From the NCBI GenBank assembly GCA_028289675.1, contig JANQOL010000604.1, positions 1 to 38,002 on the forward strand: DNA of 38,002 nt, written 5' to 3'. Below the pieces are notes generated by a model. The model did not search any database. It was not told where the DNA came from and was given only the letters and a program-made list of their open reading frames with translations. Source of the stretch: Pirellulaceae bacterium. GTDB lineage: Bacteria > Planctomycetota > Planctomycetia > Pirellulales > Pirellulaceae. Position 1 is the first letter of the stretch, and every line of letters begins with the position of its first letter. Shown here one piece after another: positions 7,074-34,910 of the stretch. The translations under genes and the position numbers were made by a program.

Positions 7074-10000
7074 CTAATTGAGAATCGCTTGTTCCAGCCG
7101 TTCGAAGAAGCTGTTCCATGCTTGTGGTTTGCCCATCGCGGGATTGCCATCAACGCCCATTCGCACGACGACCATGTTCCATTCCGGAATGACGAATAGC
7201 AAGTTGTGGTTCAGGCCGCTGGCGTAATAGGTCTTCGGTGGTGCCGCCGGCATGAAATTCTCGCCTCCATTGGTCCACCAGTTGAATCCGTATGCCCCTG
7301 GGCCGCGTACGTGGGAGCGGTCCGTTTTACCGACCGGCAACTCGATGGAAACTTGATTTCGCGTGGCCGCATCGACCCATTCGACCGGCAAGATTTGATT
7401 TCCGTTCCAGTTGCCTCGATTCAAAAACAAATGGCCGAAGCGTGCTAGCTGGCGCGCGGTCAACTGGACATTGGTGCAGCCGTTGCAAATGGGAATGCCG
7501 TCGATCTCGCCTTCGTGCAGCCAGGCGACATCGCCCATCCCCGTGGGCTGAAATACTCGTTCGTCCAGATAGTCGCGCAACTCCCGTTGGCCGATGCGAG
7601 TCAGCATCCGCCCCAACGTCATCTGAGCTTCGTCCCAGTAGGCATATGCTGTTCCAGGGGCGAAGTACGGTTGATCGGGGACATAGGGCGTCCAGGACCA
7701 ATCTTCGTTTTCGTCGTCCCAACGGCTGCGACCTTCGGCGCTGAAGCCGGAGGTCATCGTTGTAAAATGACGAAGCGTGGCATCCGGATAGAGCTCTCGA
7801 AGCTCCGGGAGAATGTCGGCCGCACGCGTATCCAGTGAACATCTGCCATCGGCGATCAGCAGACCGAGCGCTGTGCTGGTAAACGACTTGCTGCACGACC
7901 AGATGTTGTGCTTGTTGTCTGTGTTATTGCCTTGATGAATGCACACGCCGTTACGAATGATCATAACTTCGCTCAGCTTGTCTTGTTTGCAGTGTCCAGC
8001 AATGTACTGCAGGGCGTTTCGCAGCTGAACCGAGTCAACTCCCTGAGACTCGGGCGACTTGCTGATCCATTGTTCGACTGGAAACATCATCTTGTCGGAG
8101 CGGTCGGAATGATGCTCGGCCGGCAAGTCGGGACGTGTGAAGCGAACCAGCTCGCCTAGTTCGGCGCCGCTAGGTCGGTAGTCGCGATCCATCGTGAGCA
8201 GAAACTGGTCAAAGGCGAAGCCATCCTCGCGCATGGAAAACTGGATCGTATGCTCTCCCGGCTCATCGATGTCCAGATAGATCTCCATGGGCACACCACA
8301 GTGTTCGTCTTCGGTGCGCTGGGCACATGCCCAAGTCCATTGATTTTTGCCCTGGCACCACTGCATCCGCTGTCCATGTTGCGGCCAGTTTTCGTCAATA
8401 CCCACGTGCAACCCATTGTCTTCCGTGCCGGTGGAGAACGCCCGCACCCACACGTAGTAGCGCCCCGGCTGATCGATATGAACGCGATACGACAAGATCG
8501 CCAACATGCCGGGATGGGGGCTGAAGTTTTCGCCCGGGATCAACGGATCGTCGTGGGTGCGTCTCGTATCCGGCAATAGTCGAAGGAAACGGCCCTTGCT
8601 CGCGGGTTTCGATGCCGACAGAATGCCACGCACCCAAGTCTTGGGATCGCCAGCACTTGGCACATCGGGTAGTTGGCCCGACTTCTTCAAGGTGTACCAC
8701 TTGCGCTTGTCCGTCTTGCTTTGATCCGAGAAGTGCTCTGCTTCGACAACGATCGTGTGCTGCCGCCCATCCGCGCAAAACACAGGCTCGGTCTTGCGTA
8801 CCAGGCAAACCCAGTCGCGACCTGGATGGTTGGGCGGCTGGCCGACGTTAACCAGTCCGGGACCCCACACGGTCTTCACGCCGCCACGTTGCAAAGGGCC
8901 GCCACCGCGCGGATCAAACCAGTGCACGGAGAAGGGACCGCCGTGGCGTTCCAGATCCAGTCGCGTGTTCCCACCGCTGAACAGATAGATGCAATAAGTG
9001 TCTCCCGGCTTCGCGAAACAATAGTCGGCGTAGGCTCGGGCCAAGTGATCCGCAGACTGCATCTTCGTGAATGGCAGGTACCGCTGGAAGAAGTCGATCG
9101 CGATTCTTGATTGCTGCCACATCGACGCTCGCGGTCGCCACGTTTCGGCCGATAGATCACTTTGCGGACTGTTGTTTTGCCAGCCAAAATACCACTCGAC
9201 GCCAGCTCCACCGGCCATCAAGTTACCCCACAGTCCTTTGCTGCGAGCGTTGAAATGGTCGGGTTCGTTGTCGTCTGTAGGTAGCCCAAACTGGGCACCA
9301 CCCATCTCATCACAGCAAACCACCCAAGGTTTCCCGGCGGCCCGCGATGCGGCGACGTACTTCTTTGTGTGATAGTGCACGTCATTCCAGTGAAAATCTT
9401 GAATGGCCGTTCCGTCCAATGTCGACTGGCCCAAGTGTGGATCGAAGGTCTCTTGGATGTTGGACGCCGCATAGTGATCGTTGTGAAGGACGATGGGATG
9501 GTTATAGGGATCGATGCGGCGAATGTAGTCGGCCATCGCTTGCTGCTGTTCGGGCGTCTGCAAGTTCTCCTCGCCGACGTTCCACACGATGGCCGGATGG
9601 TGGGCAAAGCGAGCGACCATTTCGCGAAGGTACAGCTTTCGAAGCGGCCCAAGTTGACCGCTATCGAGAAGATGATCGTTCTCAGTCTCTTGGAGCACGA
9701 CATGCAATTGAATTCCGCGGCGCTGCATGTGTTCGAAGACGATGTTCCATTGAGCCAATTTGCTGACGTCGAAGCGATCGTGTCTCCATGGACCGGTCCA
9801 TGGCCATACATTGCGCCCATCGCCGTTCACATTCATCGTCAGAAAGTAGATGGAATTGACTCCCTGATCAGCCAGATAGTTGATACCGCCGATCAGTCCC
9901 CGTCCCTTTCCCGACTGCCACGTCGGATCGCCATCGCGCCAATCGCGAACATGATCTCGATAACGATGTAGCCCGTTGTCGAGAGAGGGGAGCTCGATCG

Positions 10001-10586
10001 GGTCGTGGGGCGCGGGGATAGGGTGCTCGTTGGTGTCGTGCCAAGTTCCATCAAAGTCGTGGTAGCCAAGCAGAGTTTCCGGGCTGTCCGTGCCGGCTTT
10101 CAAGAAGTACTGGCCGCTACCAGCGAATCTCAAATACCGCTCGCCGACATAGCGCAGGTGTCCATGATTGCGGAAATCACGCCCAGACTTATCCGATTTG
10201 GCCACCGTGAATTCGCCTTGTCCGCCTTCCAGCGACACAGCTTCGTTGCCGTGCCGAAGCTCTGCGCGATATGTCCAGGTGCCCATCAACGGCGGAGAAA
10301 ACCTGGCCCGCCATTTGTTGCCAGCGGTGGCTGACGTTTCGGCCGCATTGCCGTCAGCCGCAAAGAATCCGGGGACTTCATAGCGCAGCTTGGACTCAGG
10401 ATGAATCAACCAGACCGTTAGCTCGTATTGCGCAAAGGGGCTCGATTCGGCGTCTTCGCCTTCATGCGGCCCGGCAAACGTCAATGTGACCGAATGCCAT
10501 TGTTTCAATTCACCGGACAACTCGGCAGCGTTGGCAGCGTCTGCGATCAGGGAGAGCAATAGAGTGAGTAAAATGGAATGTTTCAT
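7074..10586 (-). CDS. Secreted fusion: DUF5060-like N-terminus + glycoside-hydrolase-like (DUF4038/apiosidase-like) TIM barrel + putative carbohydrate-binding region + class C beta-lactamase-like serine hydrolase
   Basis: Likely start at 10586 (MKHSILLTLLLSLIADAANA signal peptide) rather than 10652. LSGELKQWHSVTLTFAGPHEGED...FAQYELTVWLIHP is DUF5060-like; FAHHPAIVWNVGEEN barrel strand; C-terminal SCSKSFTS (SxxK) and PGTAYAYWDEAQMTLGRML (Tyr motif). Confidence 0.85.
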   Translation of the reverse strand: MKHSILLTLLLSLIADAANAAELSGELKQWHSVTLTFAGPHEGEDAESSPFAQYELTVWLIHPESKLRYEVPGFFAADGNAAETSATAGNKWRARFSPPLMGTWTYRAELRHGNEAVSLEGGQGEFTVAKSDKSGRDFRNHGHLRYVGERYLRFAGSGQYFLKAGTDSPETLLGYHDFDGTWHDTNEHPIPAPHDPIELPSLDNGLHRYRDHVRDWRDGDPTWQSGKGRGLIGGINYLADQGVNSIYFLTMNVNGDGRNVWPWTGPWRHDRFDVSKLAQWNIVFEHMQRRGIQLHVVLQETENDHLLDSGQLGPLRKLYLREMVARFAHHPAIVWNVGEENLQTPEQQQAMADYIRRIDPYNHPIVLHNDHYAASNIQETFDPHLGQSTLDGTAIQDFHWNDVHYHTKKYVAASRAAGKPWVVCCDEMGGAQFGLPTDDNEPDHFNARSKGLWGNLMAGGAGVEWYFGWQNNSPQSDLSAETWRPRASMWQQSRIAIDFFQRYLPFTKMQSADHLARAYADYCFAKPGDTYCIYLFSGGNTRLDLERHGGPFSVHWFDPRGGGPLQRGGVKTVWGPGLVNVGQPPNHPGRDWVCLVRKTEPVFCADGRQHTIVVEAEHFSDQSKTDKRKWYTLKKSGQLPDVPSAGDPKTWVRGILSASKPASKGRFLRLLPDTRRTHDDPLIPGENFSPHPGMLAILSYRVHIDQPGRYYVWVRAFSTGTEDNGLHVGIDENWPQHGQRMQWCQGKNQWTWACAQRTEDEHCGVPMEIYLDIDEPGEHTIQFSMREDGFAFDQFLLTMDRDYRPSGAELGELVRFTRPDLPAEHHSDRSDKMMFPVEQWISKSPESQGVDSVQLRNALQYIAGHCKQDKLSEVMIIRNGVCIHQGNNTDNKHNIWSCSKSFTSTALGLLIADGRCSLDTRAADILPELRELYPDATLRHFTTMTSGFSAEGRSRWDDENEDWSWTPYVPDQPYFAPGTAYAYWDEAQMTLGRMLTRIGQRELRDYLDERVFQPTGMGDVAWLHEGEIDGIPICNGCTNVQLTARQLARFGHLFLNRGNWNGNQILPVEWVDAATRNQVSIELPVGKTDRSHVRGPGAYGFNWWTNGGENFMPAAPPKTYYASGLNHNLLFVIPEWNMVVVRMGVDGNPAMGKPQAWNSFFERLEQAILN

Positions 10587-10813
10587 CGATAACAGGTCCG
10601 GCTCGTTGATCGGAAAGCTGCTCGGAAAACTGCTCGGCAGCGTACAATGCAAGCTCGCTCAAGCAGTTGATGGGTGGGGCGTTTGGTTGCCAAATCATGG
10701 ATAGTACACGTCCATTGCCGGCGTGGCTTGGTGTCGGTCGCTAAATCTGAAATGTTTTCAAAATCCGCGTAAAACAGACGGCGTCAGAGACATTTATTTT
10801 CGGAGCAAGTTCA

Positions 10814-27803: not shown

Positions 27804-29072
27804 CTAGACTTTAACGGCCGGCAACGGCGAGGCTGCCGACGTCCGGCGACGGCGCGAGCTCACAGAGGAGGTGCTTTTGGGCGCACCGGTGGTTTTGGTG
27901 GCGCGCGTGATCTTGGGTAAGAAGGTCTGCTTGAGTTCAGCGCGATGTTTGCGGAACCAACTGGACACCAATGCCAGCGTTTCTGGTCGAGGTGCAAAGC
28001 TGGCACCGATCAACTGGTCTTGCTTTAGCCAGCGACGGACCTGCGCCGTCGCCCGCCGCTTTTCCGTGATATTGCGTGGGGCGGCCATAGCGCCCTCGAT
28101 GATGCCGTGGCGGATCAGGTACCACACATCTTGGCTCGCCGCCTGCGGTCGTGCGGGAGCGATTCCGGCAACCGGATAGACGAACGTATAGTGCTCGCGT
28201 GCGGTGGACAGATCTTGGGCGCGGCGATGCAGCCAAGTGACCGCCTGCAGGTCATCTCGCAGCACCATGGCCTGTTCAAAATGTAGGTTCTTGGCCGCTT
28301 GCTCCATCTGTGTCTGCAGAACGTGCACGGGCCGATCATCCGATCCGTCCAAGAACTGACCCGCCAGATCGACCTGATATTGGTAGTCTTTGCGGGAGCA
28401 GCCAGAAATGCAGGGTCCCAAGCAGGATTGGATTTCCAAGCGAATGCAACCGGGCCGCATATCGATGTCGAATAACTGTAGCTGGTCGGTAAAGCTGCAC
28501 GGCTGCTTGCTACTGCAATCTCTGAGTTTGTAGACACGGTTGAGAACTTCCACAGCTCGGCCAGCGCGCGATGCGCCGAACAAGGGTCCGATCGATGTCA
28601 GAGCGCGGTGTTCGTGTTGTCGTGCGGTGTAGAATTGTTCGGCCGGTTGGCGCCCCAAACACACGAACACCGGCTGCTGGCGACGTGGAATTCCCTGGAC
28701 ATTGAAGCGCGGTTGAAACTGACGAATCAAGGCTTGTTCGCGCACCAGCGCGGCAAACTCGCTGGGCTGCGTTTCCCAAACGATGGACACGCTCGACTGG
28801 ACAATTCGTCCCGCTTTGTCTTCTTCGTTGTTGGGCAGAAAATAGCTTAGCAGGCGATTGCGAAGCAACTTGGATTTGCCCACATAGATCACACGACCCT
28901 GGACATCGAGCATGCCATACACGCCCGGTTCCTTGGGCGCAAACTGTCGCACCTGAGCTCGCAGAGTTTCCGGACTGTCTCCGTCAATATGGCGGAGACC
29001 GGTCCGCGCAAACGGATACAACGGATCCTCGCCAAAATCAAAGAAGGGGCTCTCAGTGAGCACTGCGTCCAT
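27804..29072 (-). CDS. GIY-YIG nuclease with UVR motif, UvrC N-terminal-half/Cho-like
   Basis: EPGVYGMLDVQGRVIYVGKSKLLRNRLLSYF (GIY-YIG), EFAALVREQALIRQFQPRFN, CIRLEIQSCLGPCISGCSRKDYQ Cys motif, LQTQMEQAAKNLHFEQAMVLRDDLQAV UVR motif; no RNase H-like or HhH domain at the C-terminus. Confidence 0.88.
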   Translation of the reverse strand: MDAVLTESPFFDFGEDPLYPFARTGLRHIDGDSPETLRAQVRQFAPKEPGVYGMLDVQGRVIYVGKSKLLRNRLLSYFLPNNEEDKAGRIVQSSVSIVWETQPSEFAALVREQALIRQFQPRFNVQGIPRRQQPVFVCLGRQPAEQFYTARQHEHRALTSIGPLFGASRAGRAVEVLNRVYKLRDCSSKQPCSFTDQLQLFDIDMRPGCIRLEIQSCLGPCISGCSRKDYQYQVDLAGQFLDGSDDRPVHVLQTQMEQAAKNLHFEQAMVLRDDLQAVTWLHRRAQDLSTAREHYTFVYPVAGIAPARPQAASQDVWYLIRHGIIEGAMAAPRNITEKRRATAQVRRWLKQDQLIGASFAPRPETLALVSSWFRKHRAELKQTFLPKITRATKTTGAPKSTSSVSSRRRRTSAASPLPAVKV

Positions 29073-29503: not shown

Positions 29504-30343
29504 ATGCAAGTTACCAAAGCTATCATTACCGCTGCCGGCCAAGATCAAACGGCCTTGCCATTGCAAACGGTGGTTGACCGAGCCGGCAATGTTCGCACAG
29601 CGTTGGCCCTGTTACTGGATGAAGTGTCCAGTGCGGGCATCGACGACGTAGCGCTGGTGGTCTCCCCAGGGCAAGCGGAGCGGTACCGGCAGGCGGCGAG
29701 CGTTCACGGCGATCGCATTGCGTTCTTTGAACAGCACGATCCCCGCGGGTACGGCGACGCCTTGTTGCGAGCTCGCGAGTTTGCGGGCGACCAGAGCTTT
29801 TTGCACTTGGTCAGTGATCACTTGTATGTCACCCGGAACTGCAAGTCGTGCGCTACTCAGTTGATCGAAGTGGCGCAGCGCGAGCAGTGTTCGGTGTCGG
29901 CCATTCAGCCCACTCGCGAGAACAAGCTAGCCTTTTTTGGTGCGATCGGAGGCGCTCCGCTGGCTCGCCAACCGGGTATCTACGAAGTGCATACCGTTTT
30001 GGAAAAACCGACGCCAACAGTCGCTGAACAACAGTTGATCGTCGCCGGCCAACGGGCGGGACACTATTTGTGCCTGTTCGGCATGCACGTTTTGACCCCT
30101 GGCATCTTTGATCTGCTGGAACAGGCCGTAGCTGGTTTGGAAGACGGGCAGACAGCCAATCTATCGCAGTCGCTCCATGAACTGGCGCAATCGCAACGAT
30201 ACCTGGCGTCTCAGTTGGATGGTGAGCGCTACAACATCGGCGAGAAGTACGGCTTGTTACTCGCCCAATTGGCGATCGCTTTGTCGGGTGACGACCGAGA
30301 CAACGTACTCACCGAACTTGTCGAGTTGGTGGCCAAGCAGTAG
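29504..30343 (+). CDS. GalU-like sugar-1-phosphate nucleotidyltransferase family protein with degenerate nucleotide-binding loop
   Basis: VTKAIITAAGQDQTALPLQTVVD...SAGIDDVALVVSPGQ; HLVSDHLYV; VLEKPTPTVAEQQLIVAGQRAGHYLCLFGMHVLTPGIFDLLE resembles the GalU VEKP...GRYILTPEIF segment. Confidence 0.8.
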   Translation: MQVTKAIITAAGQDQTALPLQTVVDRAGNVRTALALLLDEVSSAGIDDVALVVSPGQAERYRQAASVHGDRIAFFEQHDPRGYGDALLRAREFAGDQSFLHLVSDHLYVTRNCKSCATQLIEVAQREQCSVSAIQPTRENKLAFFGAIGGAPLARQPGIYEVHTVLEKPTPTVAEQQLIVAGQRAGHYLCLFGMHVLTPGIFDLLEQAVAGLEDGQTANLSQSLHELAQSQRYLASQLDGERYNIGEKYGLLLAQLAIALSGDDRDNVLTELVELVAKQ

Positions 30344-30374: not shown

Positions 30375-33300
30375 ATGTCCAAATCTTCTTCCATGGCCAC
30401 CGCGGATCTCGTCGAAGTCATCACTTCGAACGATCCCCTGGCGCGAAACACGTCGTTGGACGCTGTCTGTCAAAACCTGTCGCGCGAGGAACTGCTGACC
30501 ATGTGCGGTCAGTTGGATCAGTTTCGCAGGCATAGCGACAATCTCTATCACCGGGTACGAGCGCTTTTCTTTCTATACGCGATTCACCGTTTTCATCTGC
30601 CTCGCGAACTGGCAGGCCGCGAATGCGGTGTCATCCCGTTTACGGCCTACGAAGGATTACTGAACCGCAGATTTCAGGAGGCGATACGCGATCTACTTGT
30701 CGAGCAAGAATTGAGCGGTCCAAGTATCACGCTGTCCAGTGGACTGGCGGCCGCTTATCACAGCCTGGCGTTCCAAACACTGGCTGATCAAGTTCGAAAA
30801 AGCGTGCGGACGGTCAAAGGCAATCAGTGGATGTTTCGCACCGGGCATCCCGCGGATCTGCCGTTGCGCATTCGCCCCGAATTGTTGCAAGTCGACGACC
30901 ACGGTTGTTTTCCATTATTGCGGGAACGCACCAGCGTTCGCATGGACTTTTCCCATAGCGGTTGGAGTGACATTTTCTTTCTGGGCATGGATTTTCCGGA
31001 AGGCGCGCGTGTCATCAACGCGTCAGTCGATTTGGCAGTGCGCGGCAAGCATGCTCAGCCCGAACCGCCGATCGAAGCCGTGTTGCGAGTCATCGACGAA
31101 CCGGTGCTGCGTTTGGTTAGCATCGACTTGGACGCTTCCGCGGACATTCGCTCGCTGGGCGAAGTCTACGACTTTGCCCGGGACTACCTGGGGCTGCTCA
31201 AGGCCGCCGTCATCGCTTCCGGCCTGATTCCGCCCGGCATGGAAGGCTGCGACGAAGGAATTGAATCGGTGCTGAACAAACTAGTCGGGCCTGGCAAGGG
31301 GCTGGAGATTGTCAGCCGCGTCAACGACATTCCCAAAGGATCGCGTTTGGCAGTGTCGACCAATTTGTTGGGCTCGCTGATTTCAGTGTGCATGCGCGCC
31401 AGCCATCAAGTTTCGAGGTTGACGGGCACCCTCAGCGAGGAAGATCGGCGGATCGTGGCGGCGCGGGCCATCTTGGGTGAATGGCTCGGCGGCTCGGGAG
31501 GAGGTTGGCAGGATTCGGGTGGAGTCTGGCCGGGAATCAAACTGATTAGCGGTAGCCCAGCGGAACCCGGGGATCCCGAACACGGCATCAGCCGCGGCCG
31601 ACTACTGCCTCGGCACCATGTGTTTTCTAAAGAAGAGATCTCCCATGAGACTCGAACCCAGCTGCAGGAATCGCTCATCCTGGTGCATGGGGGCATGGCG
31701 CAGAACGTCGGGCCAATTTTGGAAATGGTCACCGAGAAGTACCTGCTGCGCAGCGGCCAAGAATGGGAAGCCAGACAAGAAGCGATGGCGATTCTCGATG
31801 AAATCGCTTCCGCTTTACAGGCCGGCGATCTACGCGAGGTCGGCAAGCTCACCGGTCGGAACTTTGCCGAACCTCTGCAGCGCATCATCCCGTGGTGTTC
31901 CAACCGCTACACCGAGTCATTGGTCGAGCAGTGCCAAGCCAAGTATGGCGATCAATTCTGGGGATTCTGGATGCTGGGCGGCATGGCCGGTGGCGGCATG
32001 GGTTTCATTTTCGATCCCGCCGTCAAAGGCGAGGCCTCCGATTGGCTGGCGGACACGATGTTGGCTACCAAACGCGATTTGGAGCACAGTTTGCCCTTCG
32101 CCATGGATCCGGTGGTCTACGATTTTGAGATCAATGACTCGGGCACCCGTGCTGAACTAGTCAGTGATGGCGCGATGCCGCGCGGCTACTACGAACTGAT
32201 AGTGCCGGAGTTGCTGCGCCGCGACATGCAAGGTTTAAGCTCAACTCAGCAATCCGAATTGCAGCGCGTGAGCGGGTTGTGCCGCGGGACGACAGCGGCT
32301 GCGGATCCAGGCCTAGCGCACCGCTTGTTGGATCGGATCTTGCCTGAGGCGCACACAGAAGCTGAAAACTCCACCTCTCTGGCTCAGCTGTTGGAAGAGA
32401 ATGGATTCGATCTTATCGCGCACAATCAGCTGCGCGAAGACATTCTATCCGGCCGACTCGGGCTGCCGCAGAATCGACTGCCGGCCAATGCGCGCATCGA
32501 GGACGTCTACGCTGAAGACATCCTGGACGCGCGGCAAGCCATTCCGGCGTCGCTGGGGCAAGCTGCCGAGAAAGCGATCGCCGCGGGTGAAGTGGCCGTG
32601 CTGACGTTGGCCGCGGGCGTTGGCAGCCGCTGGACACAAGGCGCCGGGGTCGTCAAGGCGTTGCATCCGTTCTGCAAGATGGGCGGGAAGCACCGGACGT
32701 TCCTCGAAACGCACTTGGCCAAGAGTCGCCAAGTTGGCCAGCGCTGGGGACAGTATCCGACACACATTGTCTCCACCGGCTACATGACCGACGGCCCCAT
32801 TCGCGGTTACTTGGATCGCTTGGATTATGCGGGACGCAAAGTGGTCTCACGAGGCAAGAGCGTCGGACTGAGAATGATCCCCACCGCGCGGGATTTGCGA
32901 TTTGCCTGGGAGGAAATGCAGCAGCAGTTGCTGGACGAACAACAAGAAAAGATGCGGCAGAGCGCTCGGGCAGCACTGCTGCACTGGGCCGAAGCGGCAG
33001 GCGAAGCGGCCGACTACGTGGACAATCTGCCGATGCAGTGTATGCATCCAGTCGGCCATTGGTACGAAGTGCCCAATCTGCTACGCAACGGTGTGCTCAG
33101 TGACCTGCTCTCCGAGCAACCTTCGTTGAGGTACTTGATGCTACACAACATTGATACGCTCGGCGCATCGATCGACCCGGGCGTGCTGGCCCTGCACATG
33201 ACCAGCGGAGCATGCCTGTCATTTGAAGTGATTACGCGACGGCTGGAGGATCGCGGTGGAGGGCTGGCACGCGTCGACGGGCGGCCACGACTAGTGGAAG

Positions 33301-33707
33301 GCTTGGCAATGCCTGACGAACGGGAAGAATTCAAACTGTCGTACTACAATTCGATGACCACTTGGATCGACATCGACCGTTTGTTGGAGGTCTTTGGGTT
33401 GTCGCGAGGCATTCTGGATCAAGCCGATGTCGTGGACGAAGCGATTCGCAGCCTGGGCCGGAGAATGCCCACCTACGTGACGCTGAAGGATGTCAAGAAA
33501 CGCTGGGGCAACGGTCAGGAGGACGTCTTTCCAGTCTCCCAATTCGAAAAACTGTGGGGTGACATGACAGCACTTTCTGAAGTGGATTGCCAGTTCATCG
33601 TTGTTCCCACCGTCCGCGGCCAGCAGCTGAAAGAGCAAGCACAGTTGGACGGATGGCTACGAGATCAGTCCGCTGCGCAAATTGAATCACTGTGTGCCTG
33701 GTCCTAG
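30375..33707 (+). CDS. Bifunctional-looking protein: N-terminal GHMP kinase (fucokinase-like) + C-terminal UDPGP-type sugar-1-phosphate nucleotidyltransferase
   Basis: Start at 30375 (MSKSSSMATADL) rather than 30177, which lies inside the preceding gene. GHMP motif 1 SVRMDFSHSGWSD (within 30927-30971), motif 2 GGSGGGWQDSGGVWPGIKLI (~31488), motif 3 LGGMAGGGMGFIFDP (within 31968-32018); VLTLAAGVGSRWTQGAGVVKALHPF (~32593) nucleotidyltransferase signature. Confidence 0.85.
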   Translation: MSKSSSMATADLVEVITSNDPLARNTSLDAVCQNLSREELLTMCGQLDQFRRHSDNLYHRVRALFFLYAIHRFHLPRELAGRECGVIPFTAYEGLLNRRFQEAIRDLLVEQELSGPSITLSSGLAAAYHSLAFQTLADQVRKSVRTVKGNQWMFRTGHPADLPLRIRPELLQVDDHGCFPLLRERTSVRMDFSHSGWSDIFFLGMDFPEGARVINASVDLAVRGKHAQPEPPIEAVLRVIDEPVLRLVSIDLDASADIRSLGEVYDFARDYLGLLKAAVIASGLIPPGMEGCDEGIESVLNKLVGPGKGLEIVSRVNDIPKGSRLAVSTNLLGSLISVCMRASHQVSRLTGTLSEEDRRIVAARAILGEWLGGSGGGWQDSGGVWPGIKLISGSPAEPGDPEHGISRGRLLPRHHVFSKEEISHETRTQLQESLILVHGGMAQNVGPILEMVTEKYLLRSGQEWEARQEAMAILDEIASALQAGDLREVGKLTGRNFAEPLQRIIPWCSNRYTESLVEQCQAKYGDQFWGFWMLGGMAGGGMGFIFDPAVKGEASDWLADTMLATKRDLEHSLPFAMDPVVYDFEINDSGTRAELVSDGAMPRGYYELIVPELLRRDMQGLSSTQQSELQRVSGLCRGTTAAADPGLAHRLLDRILPEAHTEAENSTSLAQLLEENGFDLIAHNQLREDILSGRLGLPQNRLPANARIEDVYAEDILDARQAIPASLGQAAEKAIAAGEVAVLTLAAGVGSRWTQGAGVVKALHPFCKMGGKHRTFLETHLAKSRQVGQRWGQYPTHIVSTGYMTDGPIRGYLDRLDYAGRKVVSRGKSVGLRMIPTARDLRFAWEEMQQQLLDEQQEKMRQSARAALLHWAEAAGEAADYVDNLPMQCMHPVGHWYEVPNLLRNGVLSDLLSEQPSLRYLMLHNIDTLGASIDPGVLALHMTSGACLSFEVITRRLEDRGGGLARVDGRPRLVEGLAMPDEREEFKLSYYNSMTTWIDIDRLLEVFGLSRGILDQADVVDEAIRSLGRRMPTYVTLKDVKKRWGNGQEDVFPVSQFEKLWGDMTALSEVDCQFIVVPTVRGQQLKEQAQLDGWLRDQSAAQIESLCAWS

Positions 33708-33719
33708 CCCGGATGTTGC

Positions 33720-34910
33720 ATGATTCTGCATGTTGACATGGACGCGTTTTACGCGTCCGTCGAAGAGCGCGAACGCCCAGAACTGGTGGGTCGCCCCTTG
33801 GTGGTCGGAGGTTCGCCGACCGGGAGAGGTGTCGTGTCGGCGGCCAACTACGAAGCTCGCAAGTTTGGAGTGCACAGCGCCATGCCGGTCGCTCGGGCGC
33901 TGCGACAGTGTCCCGAGTTGACCATCGTCCGCCCTCGCATGGAACTGTATGTCGACATCTCCAAGCAGATCCGCGCGATCTTCTATCAGTTTACACCCGA
34001 CGTAGAACCACTTTCATTGGACGAGGCATTTCTCGATGTAACTGGGTGCGAGTCCTTGTTCGGATCCGCGGAGTCCATCGGGCGTCGCATCAAGCAACAA
34101 ATCCGTAGCCAGCTGCACTTGGTAGCTTCGGTGGGCGTAGCGCCCAACAAGTTCTTGGCCAAGCTGGCCAGCGATCTCGAAAAACCCGACGGGTTTACCG
34201 TGATTTCACCGGACACGCTCCACGCGACCTTGGATCCCTTGTCGGTGTCGCGCATGTGGGGCGTCGGACGCGTGACTCAGCGTAAATTAGAACGCTTGGG
34301 CATCTCGACCTTCGGTGACTTGCGGCGGTTGTCGTCGGCACAGGCCAGACAATTGTTTGGCCCTACGGGAGAGCACTTCTGGAACTTGTCACATGGCCGT
34401 GACGACCGACGCGTGGTCGCCGAGCGGCGGGCCAAGTCCATCTCGCACGAGACGACATTCGCGCAAGACATTCAAGACCTAGAAATCTTGCTGGCCTGGG
34501 TGCTGGAACTGACCGAGCAGGTGGCCGGTCGTCTGCGTTCTCGGCAACTGATGGGTAAGACGGTGAATCTCAAAGTGCGCTACAGCGACTTCCATACCAT
34601 TACTCGTTCGAGCAGTCTGGACCACGCCAGCCAGTCGACGGACGAGATCTGGCAAGTCGCGTCCAAGTTGCTTCGAACCTCGCTACCCGAGCGGCCGCTG
34701 GACATCCGTCTGCTGGGCGTCGGAGTTTCCAATATCCAACGCCATCGCCCGCGGCAATTGCAATTGTTCGACGAAGCTGGACAACCGATTCGCCCGGCCT
34801 TGGACAAAGCCACCGATGAGGTTCGGAAGCAGTTTGGCCGGCACGCGCTGCGTCGTGGGAGTACGCTGCGGCACACCCGCTCTCGCCCACGTCCGGAGTT
34901 GGAAGAGTAG
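33720..34910 (+). CDS. dinB: DNA polymerase IV (Y-family)
   Basis: MILHVDMDAFYASVEERERPELVGRPLVVGG, YEARKFGVHSAMP, EPLSLDEAFLDVTG, SVGVAPNKFLAKLASDLEKPDG. Confidence 0.97.
   Translation: MILHVDMDAFYASVEERERPELVGRPLVVGGSPTGRGVVSAANYEARKFGVHSAMPVARALRQCPELTIVRPRMELYVDISKQIRAIFYQFTPDVEPLSLDEAFLDVTGCESLFGSAESIGRRIKQQIRSQLHLVASVGVAPNKFLAKLASDLEKPDGFTVISPDTLHATLDPLSVSRMWGVGRVTQRKLERLGISTFGDLRRLSSAQARQLFGPTGEHFWNLSHGRDDRRVVAERRAKSISHETTFAQDIQDLEILLAWVLELTEQVAGRLRSRQLMGKTVNLKVRYSDFHTITRSSSLDHASQSTDEIWQVASKLLRTSLPERPLDIRLLGVGVSNIQRHRPRQLQLFDEAGQPIRPALDKATDEVRKQFGRHALRRGSTLRHTRSRPRPELEE

Follow-up and report, generated by a model that had tools for sequence, protein, structure and literature searches.

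The window, i.e. the whole stretch of 38,002 nucleotides of Pirellulaceae DNA analysed here, contains on its forward strand an open reading frame that begins MQVTKAIITAAGQDQTALPLQTVVDRAGNV and in which, further on, VLEKP...GHYLCLFGMHVLTPGIFDLLE is still present. It is followed, after a gap of 31 nt, by the ATG (position 30375) of a second reading frame, of 1110 amino acid residues (Table 1). The original prediction had described the first product as a GalU-like protein that lacks the GxGTR/PK signature and retains VLEKP, encoded 31 bp upstream of the next gene; the sequence and its alignment with relatives confirmed both the missing and the retained motif, and the gap was also confirmed.

The GalU profile TIGR01099 recognised the window protein with E=3e-23 and 82.7 bits, below the curated cut-off of 326.8, its best match beginning at residue 71, and the Pfam NTP_transferase profile covered residues 36–220 and nothing earlier. 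An AlphaFold2 model, obtained with a 55-sequence family alignment, had a pLDDT of 93.1 and a pTM of 0.91, and a Foldseek search of this model against the PDB gave YngB and GalU structures as best matches (E to 8e-23); this confidence and these matches identify the fold as that of GalU. As modelled, the window protein is a GalU/GT-A-like fold without the catalytic front end. Compared with GalU (TIGR01099; YngB and the H. pylori and P. aeruginosa UGP), it is alike in the GT-A-like fold, the Q/G base contacts, the metal Asp and the EKP sugar contacts, but it is devoid of the GxGTR motif, the PKEM Lys loop and the tetramer segment, the second Asp is mostly Asn in its family and its score lies far under the curated cut-off. 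No protein above the GalU cut-off was found in the window's assembly, which is 84% complete, the window protein being its best match to the GalU profile; a separate UDPGP protein, encoded on contig C685, could be a source of UDP-sugar in this genome.

Table 1. Coordinates of the genes and residues discussed in the text.
Feature	Position in the window	Strand	Basis
GalU-fold pseudo-nucleotidyltransferase (putative), 279 aa	29504..30343	+	ORF, profiles, model, structure matches
Residues 12–22 (GQDQTALPLQT), remnant of the GxGTR loop; PKEM/Lys loop (8 residues) deleted between 22 and 23	29537..29569	+	alignment
Residues 51–79, a segment with 24 more residues in active-looking relatives; site of GalU tetramer contacts	29654..29740	+	alignment
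Asp105, metal-ligand Asp, invariant	29816..29818	+	alignment with GalU
Glu167-Lys168-Pro169 (EKP), sugar/diphosphate contacts, invariant	30002..30010	+	alignment with GalU
Asn244; Asp in GalU and Hydrogenedentota orthologues (second conserved Asp, YDxG)	30233..30235	+	alignment
Partner, fusion of an N-terminal FKP-like GHMP kinase with a C-terminal UDPGP-type pyrophosphorylase; intact motifs	30375..33707	+	profiles, structure matches, motifs

Loss of the catalytic motifs

In the alignment with intact relatives, residues 12–19 of the window protein (GQDQTALP) correspond to GLGTRFLP of GalU, and eight residues, including the Lys of PKEM, are deleted after residue 22, directly after LPLQ. The signature, which the original prediction considered to be missing, is indeed gone, not by simple replacement but by this deletion together with the decay of GxGTR. 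The Lys loop is missing in 71/71 distinct rows of the deletion clade, and, since so many distinct homologues share its loss, this loss is not due to chance, drift or sequencing error; an assembly error was rejected on the same ground. In YngB, Lys28 and Glu29, both within the loop deleted here, contact the uridine moiety (PMC7961091), and the T20M/R21H replacements in the GxG(T/S)R motif of E. coli GalU decreased activity about 500-fold (PMC4643126). The Arg of GxGTR, absent from the window protein, is present in 20/71 deletion-clade rows (e.g. GRSQRTLP), and position 244 is occupied by Asn in 53/71 and by Asp in 18/71. This Asp to Asn change and a second deletion, of 24 residues (see below), had not been noticed in the original prediction.

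The Arg present in those 20 rows would be in line with an ordinary, active GalU whose signature is shifted and misplaced by the alignment. This explanation seems very unlikely, given that the Lys loop is absent from every deletion-clade row, that the Arg is not conserved and is missing from the window protein, and that the second Asp is mostly Asn. Catalytic Arg/Lys residues at shifted positions, which had been proposed as evidence against a pseudo-nucleotidyltransferase, were sought near the lost loop, and no conserved basic residue was found at positions 12–22 of the deletion clade. On this comparison, the reading of the window protein as a pseudo-enzyme is well supported.

In a motif-masked tree, loop loss required one change, the Asp/Asn exchange six and the Arg nine; when the 24-residue segment was also left out, a single loop loss was again obtained, the deletion clade being composed of exactly the 62 non-redundant rows that lack the loop. 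Where the signature was lost, Q15, L18, P19, L20 and Q21 are mostly fixed in this clade, and H101, V103, T170, P171, T172 and Q176 are also fixed or nearly so; Q15, L18, L20, Q21 and the latter six all differ in Hydrogenedentota. Such clade-specific fixed residues look like a repurposed pocket, not like drift. They cluster at the emptied loop, on the metal strand and beside EKP, as might be expected of an enzyme with altered chemistry, in which the remodelled site (Q15, Q21, H101, T170-P171-T172, Q176) would carry out hydrolysis, transfer or a reaction with another donor on a nucleotide-sugar; the invariance of one metal Asp, and the presence of both in 18/71 rows, also point in this direction. 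Nevertheless, an altered nucleotide chemistry, already considered in the original prediction, has become less likely, because the phosphate-handling residues are gone and most members have also lost one conserved Asp; moreover, no new conserved basic residue for phosphate handling is observed near the lost loop, and the repeated changes at the second Asp and at the Arg look like relaxed catalytic constraint. We thus regard this alternative as improbable for the family, although some deletion-clade members may have a residual or altered activity, given that 18/71 keep the second Asp and 20/71 keep the Arg.

Retained pocket and loss of the tetramer segment

Q77, G82, D105, E167, K168 and P169 are invariant in the deletion clade, Q77 also when the Hydrogenedentota orthologues are included. 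By alignment, the first five correspond to Gln105, Gly110, Asp133, Glu191 and Lys192 of YngB, which were described as contacts to the base, the metal, the glucose and the diphosphate (PMC7961091). The conservation of base, metal and sugar contacts argues that the pocket may still bind a nucleotide or a nucleotide-sugar.

The second deletion concerns segment 51–79, which has 29 residues in 61/62 non-redundant deletion-clade rows and 53 in 23/23 Hydrogenedentota rows. According to the alignment and to the numbering of PMC11005391, the equivalent segment of P. aeruginosa GalU holds the tetramer-interface residues E63, H65, D67, Y70 and H74. K21, D67 and R101 were identified as the most critical residues for the PaUGP tetramer (PMC11005391), and the equivalents of K21 and R101 are also not kept in the window family. 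That the GalU tetramer surface appears to be gone would be in keeping with a switch of oligomeric partner.

The adjacent kinase-pyrophosphorylase

The N-terminal half of the partner protein matches NCBIfam PRK13412 (FKP; E=2e-21), in the kinase part only, and it also matches FKP by fold (PDB 9iip, 9iit), while the C-terminal half matches PF01704 and has plant, fungal and animal UGP and UAP as structure matches. The kinase motifs (IPKGSRLAVSTN, GGWQD and GGMxGGGMG) and the UDPGP motifs (LAAGxGSRW...GAGVVKAL, HNIDTLGA and YYNS) are intact in nearly all partner rows. The partner sequences of L130, L134, L135 and L138 are divergent, the tree placement of the long-branched ones being unsure.

The kinase half is thus similar in sequence and fold to that of FKP, the bifunctional L-fucokinase/fucose-1-P guanylyltransferase, but the partner differs from FKP by its reversed domain order and by a pyrophosphorylase half of the UDPGP type. 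In fact, the profiles detected no FKP-type guanylyltransferase N-terminal domain, the UDPGP-type half being present at the C-terminus instead. A description of this reverse-order architecture of FKP-like kinase and UDPGP was not found in the literature searched.

Association of the two genes

In the window's family, for which 119 genomes were searched, 40 genomes have the GalU-like subunit, 40 have the partner and 39 have both (Fisher p=4e-29, a value without phylogenetic correction); the two single occurrences are each truncated by the end of their contig (7,039 and 4,915 bases long). Once contig ends are allowed for, pairing in the family is perfect. Also, an overlap of 4 bp between the two genes is common to many lineages, and the proposal that the GalU-like protein belongs with the next gene is therefore well supported. 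When 34 loci, that of the window among them, were compared, the partner clustered in all 34 and the subunit in 28, and no other gene recurred in more than three; a larger conserved operon was thus rejected, widespread recurrence being limited to two genes. The original prediction suggested checking the conservation of the pair across planctomycetes: the pair recurs there and reaches beyond them, and the Hydrogenedentota copies look intact. These genetic data support the reading of the window protein as a putative partner subunit.

Distribution and history of the family

The family with the loop deletion comprises at least 71 distinct sequences from Planctomycetota and Chloroflexota; one scan of GTDB genomes yielded 41 loci, and family-, phylum- and cross-phylum searches yielded more. 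In four other loci (L097 and L098 from Planctomycetota, L174 and L177 from Chloroflexota), a GalU-like domain lies within long open frames of about 640–680 codons, and these domains are possibly parts of fusion proteins; L097/L098 have the sequence GFGVELFP, in which the Arg is gone, and their Lys loop is present.

Stepwise motif loss and the existence of partner-only genomes could be taken as signs that the gene is a pseudogene in decay, a passenger of the operon. However, close pairs with finite dS have dN/dS values of 0.02–0.14 in the window family, similar to those of the partner (0.03–0.08), and this strong purifying selection led us to discard the pseudogene, which would be the least credible of the explanations considered. 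Nor do the high-confidence fold, the clade-specific fixed residues and the reading frames, open in nearly all sampled members (an internal TGA was observed in one row, L169), favour decay.

In Hydrogenedentota, the orthologue adjoins the same partner, and 25/25 full-length loci examined have the Lys loop, the Arg and both Asp; judged by these motifs, the Hydrogenedentota members look catalytically intact. L072, from Phycisphaerae, has lost the Arg but neither the Lys loop nor the long segment, and it branches as the sister of the deletion clade (96/86). Two intact relatives were identified in Planctomycetota (L136 and L137), with no partner found nearby. Finally, L131, L132 and L133 (genomes G163, G267 and G296) have the partner, and no GalU-like subunit of this family was found in these genomes. 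In a quick tree these three group with L139/L140, inside the deletion clade, a placement which suggests that the subunit may have been lost later, after inactivation. The subunit is likewise absent in the long-branched L130 and L134. The occurrence of the partner alone in several genomes implies that the subunit is not strictly required.

That some lineages manage without the GalU-like subunit, together with the strict pairing, the recurrent gene overlap and the loss of the homotetramer segment, would also be compatible with a structural or chaperone-type role, in which an inactive GalU fold would sense no ligand and would serve only the stability or oligomerisation of the kinase-pyrophosphorylase. 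We consider this role unlikely, though the strongest of the alternatives, as the invariant base and sugar pocket residues would be needless in a purely structural subunit.

A putative regulatory pseudo-nucleotidyltransferase

Taken together, the window protein probably derives from a GalU-type uridylyltransferase whose catalysis was lost, and has been retained to serve the adjacent enzyme as a dedicated non-catalytic subunit or regulator. A ligand-sensing regulatory subunit, comparable to GMPPA in its role for GMPPB (PMC11228364), is the best-supported reading. We propose that the operon ancestor had two nucleotidyltransferases, one of the GalU type and one formed by the UDPGP half of the fusion protein. 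The GHMP kinase half of the partner would phosphorylate a free sugar, and its own UDPGP half would then activate this sugar; because the partner already had a nucleotidyltransferase, the GalU-type active site may have become dispensable. The pocket (Q77, G82, D105, E167, K168) may now bind a nucleotide or nucleotide-sugar and signal to the partner, as from GMPPA to GMPPB, and the deletion of the homotetramer segment may have made a surface available to the partner in a putative physical complex. In its most specific form, i.e. a GalU-type enzyme turned into a nucleotide-sugar sensor subunit for a UDPGP-class enzyme fused to a fucokinase-like kinase, with intact, decayed and lost states beside the same partner, the proposal is tentative, and our confidence in it is somewhat short of even.

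Non-catalytic nucleotidyltransferases that bind the product and control a pyrophosphorylase were described in GMPPA-GMPPB and in plant KJC1-VTC1 (PMC11228364; PMC9168903). GMPPA is a paralogue of GMPPB and both have beta-helix domains, whereas here a GalU-type pseudo-subunit would regulate, as we infer, a UDPGP-type partner fused to a GHMP kinase. In plant ADP-glucose pyrophosphorylase, the large subunit is modulatory and the homologous Arg is replaced (K44; PMC4643126); unlike the window pair, its catalytic and modulatory subunits are homologous within one enzyme class, and reversion of a single residue restored activity, whereas in the window family the entire loop is absent. In E. coli, the GalU homologue GalF, whose GxG(T/S)R motif is broken, is a monomer of very low activity (PMC4643126). 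The window protein is also a GalU homologue in which this motif is broken, but GalF has two residues changed and residual activity, while the window family also lost the whole Lys loop; furthermore, GalF is an extra paralogue of GalU, and the window gene is instead tied to a kinase-pyrophosphorylase.

The window family has, by alignment and model, what would characterise a regulatory pseudo-nucleotidyltransferase, a fold with lost catalytic residues and a kept ligand pocket, and it has a conserved link, in the form of genetic linkage, to an active-looking pyrophosphorylase. This kind of protein is already known; what is new is a GalU-type subunit with a UDPGP-type kinase fusion and with intact orthologues in the same operon slot. 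In the literature searched, nothing was found on this pair or on bacterial pseudoenzyme nucleotidyltransferases. Transitions from enzyme to regulatory pseudoenzyme are usually inferred from paralogues, and here from orthologues in one fixed operon slot. Since intact (Hydrogenedentota), intermediate (L072), loop-deleted and absent states occur beside the same neighbour, the transition is directly testable with matched protein pairs. The locus suggests a sugar-activation pair, so far uncharacterised, in which an FKP-like layout is reversed, and it cautions against the annotation of window-family genes as GalU.

Other features of the window

A PHROGs search with the window locus gave no match, and a promoter/terminator scan of it gave signals near the shuffle level. 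A DNA polymerase IV (DinB) gene (33720–34910, forward strand) follows the partner gene at a distance of 12 nt, and a reverse-strand gene (27804–29072) encodes a UvrC-like protein of about 420 residues with GIY-YIG and UVR motifs, far under the UvrC profile cut-offs and possibly of the Cho or exonuclease-linked type. Neither has a counterpart in the relatives' loci searched, and DinB is, for this reason, probably a chance neighbour. A long reverse-strand open reading frame (7074–10652), of putative start and frame, combines DUF5060 near the N-terminus with a serine beta-lactamase-type domain near the C-terminus, an unusual pairing.
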